Source of the DNA: Hysterium pulicare CBS 123377
Lineage: Eukaryota; Ascomycota; Dothideomycetes; Hysteriales; Hysteriaceae
Assembly (NCBI GenBank): GCA_000467715.1
Contig: AJFK01000289.1
Span: 1 to 64,000, forward strand
DNA length: 64,000 nt
Direction of reading: 5' to 3'
Below, in pieces: positions 10,921-51,530 of this stretch (its first letter is position 1; every line of letters begins with the position of its first letter). The notes beneath the pieces are model-generated. The model was not told where the DNA came from and searched no databases. It saw only the letters and a program-made list of their open reading frames with translations. The translations under genes were made by a program, and so were the position numbers.

Positions 10921-13200
10921 TTAACCGTTCCGTCCCCGAATATCAAGTAGCTCGTTCTTCAACTTCTGCAACTTCTTCTCCGTCTTCAGATTTTCTGCCT
11001 CCTTTTCCAGCCGTGCCGTGTGGATGGCCTCCCATTCCAACTTCTTCTCCGCAATTTGCCTCTTCAGCTCCGCGACTTTGGCGTCCTTATTCTGTTGTTT
11101 GAGATTCCGGAGAGGCTCAAGCTCCGCCTTCAACGACTCGATTTTCTGCTCCCACTCCACTTCCCGCTCGTTGAATTGGTCCTGGTTTACTTGTTGAGCC
11201 TCCGCCTCTTCGACAAGTCTCGCGATATCTCTGTCCTGCTGCTCGATCTTCTTGCTCTGCTTCTCGACCTGTGCGGTGAGCTTCGTGAATTCTGCCGGAA
11301 CGGTTGGCGCTTGATCATTTAAAGATTTTTGTGTCGCTGCAGCGTTAACGAGTCTTGCCATCTCCTCTTCCAGGTACTCGCTTTTCGTGGTTAGTCTTCC
11401 GACTTCACTGTTCAAGTACGTATTCTCCTGGTTCAGCTTCGCGTTCAGGCCATCTTTGAAAGCGACCTGAGGGCCCATCTTGGCAAGACGTTTCTCGTAA
11501 TCCTCCTTGGTCTCTTTTTCCAAGGTTCCAATAAGCTCAGAGTGCTCCGCTGCCTGCTTCATCAACTTCTCCTCAGCAGATTTCTGAGCTTGCGCCAATC
11601 TTTCCTCGTAGCCCGCAATCAATCTCTGGATCTCCTCATCACGGTCTTTGGTGGCTTTTCCCTTCGGGTGTTGGATCTTTTCTTCATAACCAGTTCTCAA
11701 TTTTGCCGTGTCCGGTATTTCCAGCTTCTCTTGTAAGTGCAGATCTTGAGCTTGCTCCAGCAATTCCATAATCTCATCATCATGTTCGCAGCGCTTTGAG
11801 GATACTCCGGCAGCATTCTCATCAGCTTTCGTTCGAAGCAGCTGTATCAAGCTTTCTTGGATATCCAGTCTGTCTATCATCCGGTTGGAGTTCAAACACC
11901 CTCCACTATTTAAATGCGGAAGTAAATGGGGGACCTCGTTTCGCATGTATTGCACATGTTCATTGATGCATTGCCAACCCGTAAAGTCACAGGCATTCCA
12001 ATACTCCATTAAAAAGTCAACAGCGGCGTCATGCAGTTCTACCACTCGATTAGCGACCTTGGTGTACTCTTCGTCATCCTTCTTCTCGAAGAGGGCTATG
12101 AATACGGTTTTTTCACTTCGGACCGCTTCCTGAGGGTCTGCGTGAGCTAGCAAGACTGCATTCGATTTTTTCAAACGACTCAGGGCGGTTTGTAATTGGG
12201 TATTCTTCTCATGTAATTCTCTCATCGCCTCGATCTTCTGGCGCAAAGCTTGTGTCGTTGTGTCCAGTTCGTTCTGGAGGCGAGGATTTTCTCTGTCGAA
12301 CCTCTGATGTATGTGTCGGATCTCTTGTTTGAGTTGGATGTTCTCTAAGACTAGCGCTCCGCTTTCAAAGTTCATGACCTGCTGGTTGACGGTTCTCAAT
12401 TCCCATTGTAATCGGTCAATAGTCCTTTGCATTTCTTTCCCGCATGTAATCGTTTCGATGATTGAGTGCCCGGTACCGTTTCTAGTGACTCGCTCCTTTA
12501 GATCTCTGCATTCCTTATATATGTTTTCATAATAAGCATGCGTCGAAGTAAGCCGGTCCAGAAGTGCCTCAGATCCAGGTTGCTCGAGTAGTTGATTTGC
12601 ACTTCCTGCTTCCTCCAACTTCTCTTTCAAACTCTGGAGCTCCTTGATTAATTCGACATTGTGAGCCTGCTTCTCCGCTATCTGGTTTTCAAGTTGCTTG
12701 ATGTTCTCTTGCAGAGACTGGAGATTCATCTTCCACTCCTCAGGCTCCTTGTTCAGCAATTCCACCTTTGCTTCATTCGTGTCGACATTCTTCCATTTGT
12801 CACTCAATTGCTTCAAGTTCTCGCCATGTCGATGAACAAGTGCTAAGAGATCATCATACTCCCCAAGATCTCCAGATGTGAGTTGAGTTTGTAGACCTTT
12901 CAACGCACCTTCCAGAAGCGCGATTTGGTTTCTATGCATTTCATAGAATGGACCGATAAAATATGCATTTTCAGAGGATGGCTGCTGCTGAGGTATCAGG
13001 GAATTTGAAAGTGCCTTTTTATCTGAATGGTCCGCTGGGGCAGACGTAGTTTGCTCGTTTGGCACACGTGTGAGGATCTGCTCTTGCGGTAGCGAAGACT
13101 GAGGAGGCAGGATGACACCGCCTGTTGCCGGGCTTGTGCTGACAGATTGCGGAATTTCTAGGCCTCCTTGTTCCGAAGAGGTTTTGTCGTTTGATGCCAT
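10921..13200 (-). CDS. Large coiled-coil protein, unrecognised
   Basis: Uninterrupted 759-residue frame starting at an ATG (13200) in good context. Residues 1-75 are Ser/Pro/Gln-rich and likely disordered; from about 85 to the end the protein is almost all heptad-like Glu/Lys/Leu/Gln sequence (for example LQENIKQLENQIAEKQ, LKAELEPLRNLKQQNKD), broken near residues 375-440 by a more globular segment with Trp and Cys (YWNACDFTGWQCINEH). This implies a long rod, perhaps a scaffold or cytoskeletal tether, but no family is recognised. No signal peptide or membrane segment. It is the first of three adjacent coiled-coil genes; the next one is divergent. Confidence 0.75.
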   Translation of the reverse strand: MASNDKTSSEQGGLEIPQSVSTSPATGGVILPPQSSLPQEQILTRVPNEQTTSAPADHSDKKALSNSLIPQQQPSSENAYFIGPFYEMHRNQIALLEGALKGLQTQLTSGDLGEYDDLLALVHRHGENLKQLSDKWKNVDTNEAKVELLNKEPEEWKMNLQSLQENIKQLENQIAEKQAHNVELIKELQSLKEKLEEAGSANQLLEQPGSEALLDRLTSTHAYYENIYKECRDLKERVTRNGTGHSIIETITCGKEMQRTIDRLQWELRTVNQQVMNFESGALVLENIQLKQEIRHIHQRFDRENPRLQNELDTTTQALRQKIEAMRELHEKNTQLQTALSRLKKSNAVLLAHADPQEAVRSEKTVFIALFEKKDDEEYTKVANRVVELHDAAVDFLMEYWNACDFTGWQCINEHVQYMRNEVPHLLPHLNSGGCLNSNRMIDRLDIQESLIQLLRTKADENAAGVSSKRCEHDDEIMELLEQAQDLHLQEKLEIPDTAKLRTGYEEKIQHPKGKATKDRDEEIQRLIAGYEERLAQAQKSAEEKLMKQAAEHSELIGTLEKETKEDYEKRLAKMGPQVAFKDGLNAKLNQENTYLNSEVGRLTTKSEYLEEEMARLVNAAATQKSLNDQAPTVPAEFTKLTAQVEKQSKKIEQQDRDIARLVEEAEAQQVNQDQFNEREVEWEQKIESLKAELEPLRNLKQQNKDAKVAELKRQIAEKKLEWEAIHTARLEKEAENLKTEKKLQKLKNELLDIRGRNG

Positions 13201-14016
13201 GGCTGGATAACCCAGCGGGGGTAATGAAGAAAACCGGTGGAAGTTTTAAAGAATTCCTCGCAAGAAACCCTGCAATCGGTGGGTGGTCTTTGAACAGGTT
13301 GGCGATGGAGGTGAGTACATGTTGTGATTCCACATCTTTATATGGAGTTTCGTACGAGTGAATGTGCTGACTTTGGCAAGACATAAAATAGTGAAATGAG
13401 AACATGTTCAAGAGCCGCGCTTACACGCGGACTTCACGTACACACGTGGGCTCGAACGCTATAACGTCGATATTGGACTCATTCTCCCTCTCGCGGAGTC
13501 GAACTGGATCACGTTGATGGCCTTCAGTCCAAAAGGTTCCAGACAGCTTTCCCCGACACTTCGATCAAAATTCGAAAGGCCATTAAAGACATACCAGAAA
13601 AGGTGCATCATGAGTTACTCATCAATACAAGTGAATTTGAAATGCGCAGCGTTGATATCGCCCCTCTGATACCCAATTCACAATCGTCGCATTAGCGTGA
13701 TCCGGACGACGTCTGTGCACAGGGAATCACCATGTCCCTTAAGAAATACTGCAAGTTTACCATGGAGTTACTCTTGAACACCACTCCGTCAACACCCCGC
13801 TTGGTCCACAACCCTTTTCGACCTCAACCTAGCAACCACCATAACAATCCCAACACAACAAACGAACTCCTAACCTCGACACACCCGTTCTACACAGAAC
13901 TGTGTTGTCGACTTCGTCGGATACTTTCGATCTGGTTTATCGTGAGAAAGTCGCGATTGTAGGTCTACCGTCTCCTTTCATCGAGCATCGAACAAGCTTA
14001 ACTGGCACGCAGAAAG
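13201..14016. other. Divergent promoter region between two coiled-coil genes
   Basis: About 0.8 kb. Minus-side leader for the 759-residue gene and plus-side leader for the gene at 14017. A 76-codon frame at 13732-13962 has a Pro/Thr/Asn-rich, leader-like composition and no recognisable domain. Sequence just before 14017 is CT/CA-rich as in fungal 5' leaders. Confidence 0.45.
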
Positions 14017-17000
14017 ATGAATTCGAAAAACGAGAAATCTTCCAAACCTAGAGATGCCTCTGCTGGCAAGCTCAAAGCCAGCGAGCCTGTATTGAACAAC
14101 GCCGCTCGCGCCAAATCCAACGTCGCGCCAAAATCCAACGTCAAAGCCTCTACTTCAGTCGGCTCAAATCAAAATTTCAAACCTGAGGACTCCAAGAGCT
14201 ACAGGAACCGTAAGCCTAGCGCTAGCTCGAGCTCGAGTGAGGACCGTCGTGCTCGAACGTATCAGGCAACAGCCAAAAACAACTCCGGCTCCAACCCTGC
14301 TGTTGGAAAACACCCCGTTGAAGGCCGTGGCGCTCAAAATGGGATTGGGATTGGACCAAACTCTACAATTCAGGGCGCCTCTGCTCCAACCAACTATCCG
14401 CAGGCTATCGATTCTTCTCAAACCCTTCCAGGAAGCTTGGAAACGGCTAGCAACAGTGGCCCCGGCAATGGAACTCCTGCTCCCAAGTCAACAATGCCAA
14501 GTGATACTCGTGCCCAGCCTCCTCCAGTCAACTTCCTGCAGGCTCTAAGGAAATATTCTCGAGACTTTCCAAGAAGCCGAAAAGTGATAACCAACAAGGG
14601 GTCAGACAACAAAACTTCTGCTCCTGCACCAACGGTTCCAAATGTTACTTCTGCTCCCAAGTCAACAGTTTCGAATGGTGCTTCTGCTCCTACGCCAACG
14701 GTTCCAAACAGTACTTGTGCCCAACCTACATCGGTCAACTCCTCCAAAGATGCCGATTCTTCCCGATCCCTTCCAGGAGGCAAGAACCAAGCTAGCACTA
14801 CTTGGTCCAGCAGCAATGGCTCCAGCAAACGGCCATTAATGTTCAAGCCGGCGCCACCGAATAGTGCCCATACTCAGCGTGCATCCACCACCGAACCTCC
14901 CAATCCTTTCGGTCCCAATCCTTTCGGGATTTTTGCGGAGGGCAAGACTGCGGCCAGCAAGAATGCGGTCAGCAATACTCTTAGGAGCGAGAGCATTTCG
15001 CTCGACACGAATGCACCATCAGCTTTGTCTCAGTTCTATGAAGGTTTTGAACAATGGCAGCAGGCACCAGCTCCATCACACCAGTCACAAGCTCCACCGA
15101 ATCAAACTCCAACAGCATCGGATCAAGCTACAGCTTCGACGAAAGCTCCAGCTCCATCGCAACAAGCTCCAACTCCATCACCACAAGCTCCAGTTCCCTC
15201 CCAGCAAGCACTTGCTCCATCGCGAGCAAACAGTGTGTCAAGCGCTACGTCTGTAGGTTACGAGACTGCTACTTCTGGGAAGAAAAGTTCGGATTCGGAC
15301 TGGGAGACAGATAAATCTGATGACTCGAAAGGTTTGCCTACTTCGCCATCTGTACGCGAACCAAAGGCGGCAGGGAGCACCAACTCTGCTAGTACTGAGA
15401 GCAAGCATGTACTTGCTCATGACCTGGCTTCTAACATGCAATCTCTCAACATCGAAGAAACCCAGAAACCCACCGAACATAATACGGGTGAAAAGTTGGA
15501 CGGTGAAACGAAGGCTAGACCAGTAGACAATAAGACACCATCCTCCGCAGGGCGCTCACGCATCTCAGAAGAAGTGAGCCCATCGAACGTAAATGGACCT
15601 GTCGTCGAACAGTCGCAAAACAAGATGACTACCAATACTGAAGCCCTGAAAAAGAAGGATACAAACACTGCCAATAAAAAGATCCGGATCCGAGAGGGCG
15701 ATGCCAAGGTCCTCGTTTTGGAAAGTAAGGTCTCGAGCTTGACAGCGCAGTCTGCTAACGATAAAGAAATTTTGAAAGAGAAAGAAGAAGAGATATCCGC
15801 CCTGAAGCAGCAGTTAGATGACTTGAACCGGAAGTTCGATTTATCGAGCCGTCTGAACACAGAAGCGAGGAAGGAGTGTGAGGACATTAAGACCACCATT
15901 AAGGACAAGAACCTCCGTATCTTGGAACTGGAAAACAGTGTCGTGGATACTAATGGCGAACTTTTCGACAAGAGAGCAGCATTGGCAGACGCGCAGAAGC
16001 AGATTGCCGACACGAATCTCCGTACCAAGGAATTACAGAAGAACCTCTCGAAGGCCAACCAGAAAATTTCCAGTTTGAACAGTAGGTTGGATAAGGTGCC
16101 TCAGCAAATCGCCGACACAAAGAAGGAATGTGAGAAGGAGATAGACGATCTGAACAAGGAGAACAAACAGCTACATCAGGATCTAAGAAAAGCTGAAGCC
16201 AAATTTGCCGATAATCAGGCAGAGCTCTCGCGAGTGAAGGATGAGGCCAAAACTCTGCAGATTACCATTACGAACAGGGAGGTTGCAATCCAAAAGCAGA
16301 AGGAGAAGGGTACCAGCCAGAAAGTTCATGATCTCAATGCCGAAATTAAATCGCTTAAGGCTACTAATGCCGATTTGCAACATTCACTGGAAGAAGAGCA
16401 ACGTTTGCGTAAAAAATCTGATCAGGACCTAGCTGAGTTGCGAGCTCAAACGGAGCAACAAAAAAGCATGAAGAGAGCCTCCGTCTCCTCTGCCGAGTCT
16501 GATGAGGAAGTTCGCCAGCTGAGGCGGGACCTGAAAGGTGTAATCATGGAGATACAGAACGAAAGTTATCATCAAGATCAGGTCGAGCATAAAGCGAACG
16601 ACCTGAGGGTTCAGTTAGGGAAGAAAGAGAACGAGGTCACCAATGTGAAGGCGAAATCTAAGGCAACTGCCGAAGTAAGCAGGAAGGAGAAGAAAAAGCA
16701 GCAACAAGTAAGTCATTACAGTCTTCCCCTTCTAGCCTAATATTCCTTCTCACAAGCTAAAGAATGGACGAAGGCGATGAAAGGTGCCGCTCCCAAAGCA
16801 GCAGCTTCAGTTCCCAAATCTGCTGCTCCTCAGGGTCCAGCTCCTGTCACCCAACCCCCCGCGAACCAGAAGTTGGACTTCTCAGGCGCCCTTAAGAATG
16901 GCAATCCTGCGACTTTCAAAATGGTTCGCCCAGAAGGATATGTTAGCAAGAAAGGAAACCCCCAAGGACCTAAGGGTAATCAAATCCCTCTAACGGGACC

Positions 17001-17097: not shown

Positions 17098-17605
17098 ACT
17101 CCTCGTGTAGAGTGTGTGGGCTGGCTGTTGGTATCTCTCGACTCATGAATGTTCTCTCTCTAGAGGACTGGGTTTGTTGAGTTCATTTCGTTGTTGTTGA
17201 AGGCAATTCGGCAGTGTGTTCTTGTAGTTGAGTTGTTATAAGCACCGAACCTTGCAAACTGGCTTCGAGTGGCCTGCCGTTAAAGCTTTGAGTGATGTCA
17301 CGTGAAGAAGTGTCCAGAGGCCCAATTGGGCAGGGACAAGTTACATGTGGTAAGCTCACCTTGCTCTTTCACCACGTTCGTTACTCTGCCAACGGATTCA
17401 CTCTTTATTTACCCAAGTAATCCTGCACATTTCGAAAACACCAATTGTTCGCACAGCTACCACTCTTCTCTTGAGTGCTACACTCTGCGATTGACTCTAC
17501 CTACTGTCATTCCGTGTTCGAGGTTTACCTATTGTACAAGCTAACCGACATTGACGGTAAGCTACTCCACATACCGCTCCCAATCCTCCCACTGACAAGG
17601 CCAAG
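17098..17605. other. Intergenic between tandem coiled-coil genes
   Basis: About 0.5 kb holding the 3' flank of the upstream gene and the promoter of the next. From 17340 it is CT/CA-rich and contains a short open frame (17302-17544) with no family features. Confidence 0.45.
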
Positions 17606-18998
17606 ATGGAGAAGTCGCAGAGTCCCCAGCACCCACCAACTTCAGTGCCTTTGGGCAAGTCAGACCACGTACGTACCGAGTCTCAGAACAACGAGTCGCC
17701 GTTTGCGTCGTTGCCGACGGAACGAGACCAATTCCGTGCCAGGCTGAATGAATACGCCCGCATGGTTAAGGAGCGCGACAAGGAAATAGCTGACGAGTGG
17801 ATAAACGAGGCTGAGAACAGAATTGCACTCGATCAGAAAGGGGCTGAAGCGACGAAAGTCGCCAAAGAAAAAGCCGAAGCCATGAATCTGTTGGAAGAGC
17901 ATGAAAACAATTTTGACGAACTCACTCAAGTGCATGAGGAGGAAGCGAGAAAGCGAGCTGGACACTGGCACGACTTCTACATTCGAAAGGCAGAAGAGAC
18001 GGATGAGTTACGCAACGAACTGAAGGCCATTAGATACTTCTTAGATCTGGAGGAGAATGAGGATATCGTGAAGGAGCTTCACCGCCGTGTAGCCAAGAAG
18101 CCCAAATTCGAATCCGGAACTGTCGAAGTACGCCATGAAGGACCAGAGGGATTCATCTCAACGGCTGTGCTACACCTTGAGCTAGCTATGACGCGCGACG
18201 AGTTTCCGATTCTGTTCCCATGGGTTCAAGAGTGGTTGGAGAACGCCGGGAAATCATTGTACGCGGAGGTGGCCAAGGTCAAACCTTCATTGGAAGAGCA
18301 AGGCATCAACGGACTGAATCAAGTCGCGATCACCCCTCGTTCTGAAGCAGGTGATGCGAAGTCACTTTCTCAGTCGGTGTATGCACTCGGTTCTCGTCGG
18401 CGGTCTACCCTTATCACGCCGTCTCCTGCGAAGATCCCAGCCCCGTTGTCTGCGGAGGCGAGAGAGTGGCTGCCAACGACGCCGTCACCTTCACCAGTAC
18501 TTAAGCGGAGCGAGCTTTCAAGTGACATTGTAAGTATATTTCGAGAGCAAATGGTTGGCATGTTGCTGATGGCCATATAGGGTTCTCAGGCAACTGCGAT
18601 CTCCTCCTCAGCCCAGGAGGTCCTTTCTCTGGCGGAGTCCCACAGTACCACTCCTACTAAAGAGGCTGCAAGTGAAATTGTAAGTACTCTTTGAGTTTAG
18701 GTGATTAGGCATGCTGCTGACAGCTATATAGGGCTCTCAGGCAACTGCGATCGCCTCCTCAGCCCAAGAGGTCCTTTCTCAGCCGGATTCTCACAGCAGC
18801 ACTCCTACGAACGATAAGCGAGAACCTACGACCCCTCCACTTGATACATACCACCCGATGCATGGTCTTCGTATGACTCCCCTCCAGAAGAGCTGGTCTG
18901 ATTTCCCTAATACACCGAGAGGGCTAGCAACGGAGGTCGACTTGGGAGTCATGAATTTCGATTGGCGCTCGAAGTACGGCTCGAGTGCTCGTCGCTAG
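17606..18998 (+). CDS. Coiled-coil protein with a duplicated intron-exon unit
   Basis: Three exons: 17606-18529, 18581-18679, 18732-18998 (429 residues). Residues 30-175 form an Ala/Glu/Lys-rich coiled coil (ERDKEIADEWINEAENR). A more ordered part follows (AMTRDEFPILFPWVQEWLENAG), then a Ser/Pro-rich tail. Exons 2 and 3 both open with GSQATAI(S/A)SSAQEVLS and each is preceded by nearly the same intron (51 and 52 bp, both ending CTATATAG/CCATATAG) and by the same exon end (AGTGA-C/A-ATT). So a ~150-bp block made of exon end + intron + exon was copied in tandem, in frame, adding 33 codons. No family recognised; the gene is the third coiled-coil gene in this run. Confidence 0.8.
18521..18820 (+). 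repeat. Tandem duplication of ~150 bp containing an intron
   Basis: Copy 1 runs from 18521 (AGTGACATT then GTAAGT) and copy 2 from 18671 (AGTGAAATT then GTAAGT), offset 150-151 bp. In each, the exon after the intron begins GG(T/C)TCTCAGGCAACTGCGATC and continues with CTCCTCAGCCCA(G/A)GAGGTCC. Exon parts are more alike than intron middles, as expected for an older duplication under coding constraint. Confidence 0.9.
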
Positions 18999-19427
18999 GA
19001 TTCATAGCTAAAAAAGGAAAGCCGCTTATTATGATCAACCAAGATTTATATTCGCGTCGGATCGGTATTAGGACTTGCATATGCTGGCGGTCGATTAGGA
19101 TAAGCTCGGAGAGATTTCTCGTTGTTGTTGAGATGTGAACTGCATCTTTGAGATGAGGTGTGCCACCCTCTCATCAAGATCATGATCATCGGACATTTGT
19201 TTGACCTTTCATCACGAATACTAGTAGGTAGTCCAAGATTAAGCTTCTCGGAAGTTTACACATGAACAGGGCGATGCCCATGTACTCTTTCTGCAAGTTT
19301 CAGTCATTGATGAGGATAAGATGTGAAGAAGAGCTAAAAGAGGTCGCTAAACCCTGTCCTAGTGGGTCCAACTCCAACCTTGGGAACACAAACCTGCGGG
19401 GAAGCTATTCATTGACGCTGTATTACC
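18999..19427. other. Intergenic, no gene seen
   Basis: About 430 bp of 3' flank and promoter of the methyltransferase gene; no supported feature. Confidence 0.45.
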
Positions 19428-49491: not shown

Positions 49492-49757
49492 AGGAGATAT
49501 GGCACGGTGATGAGAATTTACATAGCCCAATTTCGCATTTCAGAATTCGCATTCGCTTCAGTGCCTGCTTTAAGGGAGCAAAGCTAGGCCAAAGCACTGG
49601 TCTGAACCGCCCTGCATTATAGATCTCAACCCTCTAGGAGATATGACTTTACTAGCCCAACCTAACTTCGCATTACCCAGTTCGCATTCGCTTAGATGTC
49701 TGCTTTGGGAAAGGCGCAAACCTCCACCAAAGCACTAGCCTGAACTGTTCTGCATGA
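49492..49757. repeat. Degenerate ~125-bp direct repeat, two copies
   Basis: Copy 1 is 49492-49619 and copy 2 is 49636-49757. Shared blocks in the same order: AGGAGATATG, TAGCCCAA, TTCGCATT, (A)TTCGCATTCGCTT, CTGCTTT, CAAAGCACT and CTGCAT. Only about 15 bp separates the copies. Confidence 0.8.
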
Positions 49758-51530
49758 AGCTGTCAACCTTCTTTTCCCGCCGATCGAGAAATGAACTACG
49801 ATGAGATCCCCTACGTAACGGACGCTTCCCCCGATATCGCGAACTAGACGGGGTCGATAGATAGGGGAAAGGTGTGCAATGGAAGGGAATATTCGTTTAT
49901 GTGTGGCTTGCCCAAGAGCGCAAACCCTCAAAGTCGCTGTCACACTACTTGTGCCTCGTTGACAAACTGGCCTCTTGCTCTAGCGGATTGGCGCAGAATG
50001 AGGGAGTGCTATTGGACAAGGTCGATACTGTGTGGTTGTTCCGCTGGGAGTCGTGTAAGTCAGGCTGCTGGATCCGCTTGCCATCTGCGCCATCAACAGA
50101 GCGCTGATTGGACATAGTGTTTAGAAGTTCTTGGTGATGCATTCTGGCACTTGAATGGCTCTTGTTCCGGAGTAAAAGAGGTAGTAATGCGTGCAAAGTT
50201 TGGGTTTGGTTTGCTGGTCTCCATTTTCGGACTCCGCGGCCAATAGTCTACGGAAAAATCATCGATGATACTGAACTTAGGTTTGTCCTCGTCCCTGTAC
50301 TGTGTAAGTGATATTCGGGGTTTCAAACTACGAGTCTTAGTTTGGCTCCCAGAGCCAGGTAAAGATGCTAAGCCATAAGTTGGTTTCTATATCGTGGATG
50401 CTGTATGGGTGATAATCCAAGCAGTAGAACTTCATCCTGTATTGGGCATACAATATAGGTAGTGCATCCGTATGGAAAGATCTCAATCAATACGCTTAGT
50501 TCCGTATTGTGTATCCAAATTGGTGAAGCTCCTGAGTTGTAGAACTTGCTCTTGTGTTAAAGAAGCTAACATAAGCGCTTCACGAACGCTTACACTGGTG
50601 CGGGACTTCGAAGGCGGACTTCGTGAATGGTATATTTCTCGAGAACCAAGAGAATTTAAAGAAACACACGGGTACTTAGGTACGTAGGGTAAATAGGATG
50701 AGTTGTATTAAACATGATCGCCCTATTTATCCACTTTTGTCATCCGTTTGGCCGACGCTTGGCGTTACGTCACACGATATGGCCGCTACCTAGCCAAGCC
50801 TGCAACACCAACTTCTTCCATCAACAGAACACTGTACTTCAGCGTCAATTCTCTCAGCCTGACTGGACTAGTTGGGTATCAAGGCTTGCGACCATAGTAA
50901 GGTTATAGACGAAGCACCAACATAATGGCTCCAGTATGATGATGGTCCCCGGATGATGGCCCCAGTACGGGAACGCGGAGTCATTTTCGCACAAGAGGGT
51001 GTTCTGAAATTTTCGTGGACTTCCGGTCCGGCGAACACAAAATAACCTTGGCAAATTGAACAACGGTAGGATCACATTCATAGTTTTCCAACAGCTCCGA
51101 CAAATACCAATTACGACTATTGGCGGCCGTTTGGTGACGGTTGCCCCCTTCTGGTCTAGGTTGACCACCTCAGGGGTCATTCTCTTGTTCATCTCAACCT
51201 CATTCTTATATCAGCCTCTTTCTCATATCACACACTCTCTTGTACCAGCCTCTTTCTTATATCAATCACTTTCCTATTTCTTATAAAAAACTATCACCGA
51301 TATAACTTATTTATACAAATTCTGAACGATCGTACGTGATGAAGAAACTACAAGTACGCATTTTCTTTGCCAACCCAATGCCCTTATCGATACCAGCGTA
51401 CTGAAGGTGGACTCATTCAAGGTTTTGTGGGGTAAAAGGATCGAATGTAATCAAATTATACACATGGGGTAGACTTAATATGTGTTTTGTGGGGTACAGC
51501 AATATGGGCATATAAGCGGCAAAGTCTTGA

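Follow-up and report, generated by a model that had tools for sequence, protein, structure and literature searches.

How did a single predicted gene come to hold two short introns of the same build, each set in a similar piece of coding sequence? The original prediction was that an exon and its intron had been duplicated together in tandem, and the question raised by this locus is whether the two introns are indeed copies of one intron or reached their places in another way. The window, by which we mean the whole stretch of 64,000 nucleotides that was analysed, lies on contig C227 of a genome assembly of 37.2 Mb in 596 contigs. The build of the gene, its intron size and the size of the genome suggest a filamentous fungus. 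The gene, its exons and introns, and the two repeated units were placed as follows.

17606-18998, plus strand: uncharacterised host gene, predicted product of 429 amino acids, gene model 17606-18529, 18581-18679, 18732-18998
17606-18529, plus strand: exon 1, 308 codons, open frame
18530-18580, plus strand: intron 1, predicted from sequence, 51 nt, phase 0, with donor GTAAGT, branch-like CTGAT and acceptor CCATATAG
18581-18679, plus strand: exon 2, 99 nt or 33 codons, symmetric (phase 0-0)
18680-18731, plus strand: intron 2, predicted from sequence, 52 nt, phase 0, with donor GTAAGT, branch-like CTGAC and acceptor CTATATAG
18732-18998, plus strand: exon 3, 88 codons and the stop TAG, beginning with the second copy of the module
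about 18512-18661, plus strand: unit 1 (exon end, intron 1, exon start), from repeat search and alignment
about 18662-18812, plus strand: unit 2 (exon end, intron 2, exon start), from repeat search and alignment

Spliced at these two introns alone, the host gene reads as an open frame of 429 codons followed by a stop. The N-terminal part of the exon 1 product holds many charged residues and appears coiled-coil-like by eye. A Pfam scan of the 429 amino acids placed no family above cut-off, the top two matches having E values of 0.28 and 0.3, and a PDB search with the exon 1 product (308 residues) found no relative at E up to 0.1. When viral contigs were searched with exon 1 as the query, one stretch fit a pattern and none was confirmed. 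Two long open frames adjoin the host gene, at 10921-13245 on the minus strand and at 14002-16740 on the plus strand, and both look coiled-coil-like by eye. In a local search of small size, the frame at 10921-13245 was weakly similar to the host gene (22% over 122 residues, E 0.003), a similarity that is probably compositional.

We compared the two units by repeat search and by alignment. A direct-repeat search over 17600-19000 returned one block of 34 nt, pairing 18512-18545 with 18662-18695 at 76% and a spacing of 150, and one of 107 nt, pairing 18557-18663 with 18708-18814 at 86% and a spacing of 151; the spacing shifts from 150 to 151 because of a 1-nt indel within the intron. Identity between the units is no higher than background to the left of about 18512 and to the right of about 18663, and it is this fall at both flanks that sets the unit limits at 18512-18661 and 18662-18812. 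The units first proposed, 18521-18670 and 18671-18820, describe this repeat too, with each boundary set about 9 bases further on. A blastn self-comparison aligned 18519-18663 and 18669-18814, intron included, over 146 columns with 81.5% identity (E 9e-33). The units align throughout and the frame is open, which bears out the original prediction that a whole intron, and exon on both sides of it, had been duplicated in tandem and in frame. The two units are homologous through exon and intron, with frame and signals kept. Genome-wide, a search with unit 1 matched units 1 and 2 alone and gave no third copy at E up to 10. The direct-repeat search of 17600-19000 also returned a third family, of 20 nt, that is unrelated to the duplication. 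A short AAGCGAG-like repeat at the duplication ends was set aside, its positions being out of line with the units when judged by eye.

Within each unit the donor, the branch-like site and the acceptor are complete and stand at matching places. The GTAAGT donor of both introns and the two acceptors agree with those first described, and we take CTGAT and CTGAC to be CTRAY-type branch sites. Aligned over 51 columns, the introns show 14 differences and one 1-nt gap (72.5% identity). The identity is 66.7% without the donor and acceptor, and 64.9% when the branch-like motif is left out too. When the intron cores, trimmed by six bases at each end, were compared with 5000 dinucleotide shuffles, 10 of these matched or exceeded the observed alignment score; intron identity at the level of chance, which would speak against a copied intron, was thus not seen.

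The similarity of the two introns was also set against that of other candidate introns on both strands of the window. The pattern that defined these candidates is strict and may miss introns; it gave 33 of 45-70 nt, four of which are introns 1 and 2 in two acceptor readings each. Once 8 pairs with a shared start and strand had been dropped, 520 candidate pairs were scored, with a mean of -9.2 and a standard deviation of 5.3. Introns 1 and 2, in their two acceptor readings, made up the two top pairs, with scores of 20 and 13, where the score of 20 belongs to the downstream CAG reading and takes in 9 exon bases per intron. The best pair among other introns scored 5. Candidate introns of 50-59 nt outnumbered those in a reversed-sequence control (21 against 6) when eight common donors and a CTRAC branch motif were applied to the window and 20 sampled stretches. 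A loose intron motif over all donors gave 1107 occurrences in the real sequence and 1613 in the reversed sequence, which is a rough control. By length, introns 1 and 2 both lie within the 50-59 nt excess class.

These features of the introns bear on the proposal that a purely coding segment was duplicated and that the introns arose later from latent splice sites, whether by AGGT-type creation or by intronization. That introns can be made by tandem duplication of exonic sequence is documented in PMC3443670. Here, however, both units contain a full intron, the donor, branch-like site and acceptor of which stand at matching places, and the intron lengths fall in the genome's excess class. The AGGT model predicts an intron that runs from the GT of one copy to the AG of the next, and neither intron spans the copies; with an intron complete in each unit, AGGT-type creation does not fit. 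We consider later creation of the introns very unlikely.

The coding parts of the copies were examined in the same way. The exon copies that follow the intron carry 11 differences in 81 bases (86.4% identity) and zero indels, and 21 of 27 residues are identical between the module copies. Third codon positions account for seven of the 11 differences (one-sided binomial p 0.039). For these 81 bases NG86 gave a dN of 0.108 and a dS of 0.278, a difference that is not significant (Fisher p 0.15), and the synonymous distance was 0.47 by LWL85 and 0.22 by YN00. Ahead of the intron, 18 coding bases with 4 differences are less alike than the 81 that follow it, and with these 18 added dN/dS becomes 0.65 (NG86), 0.57 (LWL85) or 0.90 (YN00). 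At values of 0.57-0.90, constraint on the module appears weak at best. The coding copies are closer to each other than the introns are (Fisher p 0.017), and synonymous and intron differences are not distinct (p 0.57). Since synonymous and intron differences are alike, ordinary constraint is enough to account for the contrast between coding sequence and intron. Gene conversion between the exons was considered for the same contrast and is, by the same comparison, not needed.

The sole indel in the aligned part of the units is the single intronic nucleotide, which would be a frameshift if the introns stayed in the transcript. This is the pattern expected if introns 1 and 2 are both removed, and it offers indirect evidence that they are spliced. 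It is also of interest for the reading in which the gene has decayed, or one intron is left unspliced, and the repeat is a duplication of DNA only. That two other members of the family in this genome are broken fragments speaks for decay. Against it, the frame of the host gene stays open over its 429 codons with these two introns alone, the coding copies are free of indels in 81 nt whereas the intron has one, and third-position changes are in excess, so that we give decay or a failure of splicing very little probability.

The broken fragments came to light in a protein search of the genome, which gave at least five places among the best candidates, two of them being the host gene. The fragments on contigs C257 (L007:4667-4412) and C423 (L008:4123-3971) are decayed paralogues that carry stops or frame breaks. 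The C257 fragment matches window positions 18186-18446 at 69% over 268 columns, with short weak matches beyond, and the C423 fragment matches positions 17925-18079 at 77% over 155 columns. On C257 an 18-nt match (94%) to the module start was found, but neither an intact unit nor a clear intron, and neither fragment retains a readable module region that could act as a one-copy outgroup. A further candidate on C96 (L006/L009; E 3.29) was taken as a chance match. The C-terminal protein with exon 2 skipped, when used as the query, returned three places in the host gene together with weak matches on C6 (E 0.11) and C318 (E 1.25). Beyond its homologous part, L007 on C257 has weak internal repeats, about 55-206 nt apart and 62-77% alike.

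Two similar introns within one likely fungal gene might also represent an introner-like element, a mobile intron that was inserted twice in the host gene. Such elements are known in Dothideomycetes, two of them in some genes, according to the account of them in PMC4457414. A 67-base query over intron 1 and its flanks recovered itself as the one match in the genome and missed even intron 2, and is therefore sensitive to near-identical copies alone. We also searched with a 24-base pattern of the intron end that was made to suit introns 1 and 2 alike. With up to 3 mismatches it gave 2 matches in 37.2 Mb, both at this locus, while a control pattern gave 0; the numerous, nearly identical copies that such an element would have in unrelated genes were not found in this genome-wide intron-end search. 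A mobile intron, moreover, does not explain why the exon is similar between the copies as well as the intron. This reading was rejected mainly for the copied exon and for the lack of a further intron-end match, and we judge it highly improbable. An assembly artefact that repeated a stretch, conceivable in a draft assembly of 596 contigs, is least probable of all and can practically be dismissed, since about 18% of the aligned columns differ between the copies, which is far above the expected sequencing or assembly error.

As a background for the duplication, a self-comparison was run on 290,503 bases made up of the window, 20 sampled stretches and 3 paralogue stretches, restricted to copies separated by 40-1500 bases, with a length of at least 60 and E up to 1e-6. 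This gave 15 tandem-repeat rows in 5 places, and intron-like signals stood in both copies in one of the 15 rows and in one of the 5 places, the duplication in the host gene. Exon-plus-intron duplication is uncommon in the sample, and one case in less than 1% of the genome says little on its rate. A second tandem duplication in the window, at 49506-49772 (offset 131, 72% identity), is without intron-like signals under the strict pattern. A dense tandem-repeat array, with offsets of 139, 278 and others, is found at L031:112-1143 near the start of C15.

The reading that we favour, and that is very probably correct, is one tandem duplication of about 150 bp, in the C-terminal part of the gene, of a segment that already had an intron. 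The ancestor that we infer held a single copy of the segment, intron included. The copied segment would have begun in the upstream exon, of which it took about six codons, and would have continued through an entire phase-0 intron into about 27 codons of the exon that follows. With both ends of the segment in the same coding phase, and with the intron's own donor, branch site and acceptor carried along, in-frame splicing could have followed at once, the outcome being an extra 33-codon exon and a second, sister intron. The mutational route was likely replication slippage or unequal exchange. After the duplication the introns would have drifted, and the coding parts would have changed more slowly and without indels.

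The event had been described as a recent intron gain, and both words require some adjustment. The number of introns in the gene probably did rise from one to two, but by the copying of an existing intron and not by the creation of a new one; in other words, the duplication probably amounts to intron multiplication. With regard to its age, the introns are only 65-67% identical outside their signals, the NG86 dS is 0.28 in the coding part, the intron distance outside the signals is about 0.44-0.47, and the synonymous distance between the copies is roughly 0.2-0.5 depending on the method. A recent date is not supported by these distances, and the duplication appears not to be very recent.

We also considered what proteins the duplicated arrangement could produce. 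With both introns spliced the predicted product has 429 amino acids, and with exon 2 skipped it would have 396, the frame being kept. Retention of intron 1 would bring in an in-frame TAG as its last codon and stop the protein after 324 amino acids, and retention of intron 2 would place a stop inside that intron, after 345. A second in-frame CAG lies 9 nt past each acceptor (18581-18589 and 18732-18740) in both copies, and its use drops GSQ. Use of both second acceptors is predicted to give 423 amino acids. Alternative use of the 33-codon exon, also suggested in the original prediction, would be compatible with the frame. A stronger form of this idea is that the exon is a cassette and that several protein forms differ in the number and edges of their GSQATAI modules. 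It is suggested because both introns are phase 0, their donors are identical and each acceptor has a second in-frame CAG; we regard it as unlikely. If true, the cassette would show exon skipping that arose in a fungus through a duplication.

The locus is a clean example of how one small duplication can add to introns and exons at the same time, and in it the copying of an intron is kept distinct from the creation of one. It has no bearing on where new introns come from because the intron seems to have been present already. As the units can be aligned base by base, relatives could date the duplication.

The duplication is a further example of a kind of event already published. Like the fungal introner-like elements, as they are presented in PMC4457414, it involves near-sister introns, probably in a fungus; unlike them, the exon was copied too, and the intron-end search found no copies elsewhere in the genome. 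It shares with the mutually exclusive tandem exons treated in PMC9013439 and PMC9741552 a pair of adjacent, homologous and frame-compatible coding segments, but differs from those described there in that the second copy forms only the first part of a last exon that runs on beyond it. Intron number is raised, as in the creation of introns by tandem duplication. The mechanism outlined in PMC3443670, however, builds an intron from exonic or boundary sequence, whereas here a whole intron was copied. Segmental duplications with entire introns were seen by Gao & Lynch 2009, as reported in the discussion of earlier work by Ma et al. 2016 (PMC4974935), and in those cases, as in this one, an internal gene duplication carries whole introns; theirs, as reported, is a survey of many genes, while here there is one instance, with no sign of a new intron derived from an exon. 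In Arabidopsis TOUCH3, a case from Knowles & McLysaght 2006 that is relayed in the same discussion (PMC4974935), an intron that was already present was copied whole, with exon sequence from either side, in two internal tandem duplications, and Ma et al. 2016 treat this as intron multiplication, set apart from intron creation. TOUCH3 is another gene in another kingdom and underwent two duplications where we find one, but in the plant gene, as far as that account describes it, and probably in this one as well, an internal tandem duplication copied a whole pre-existing intron together with exon on both sides.
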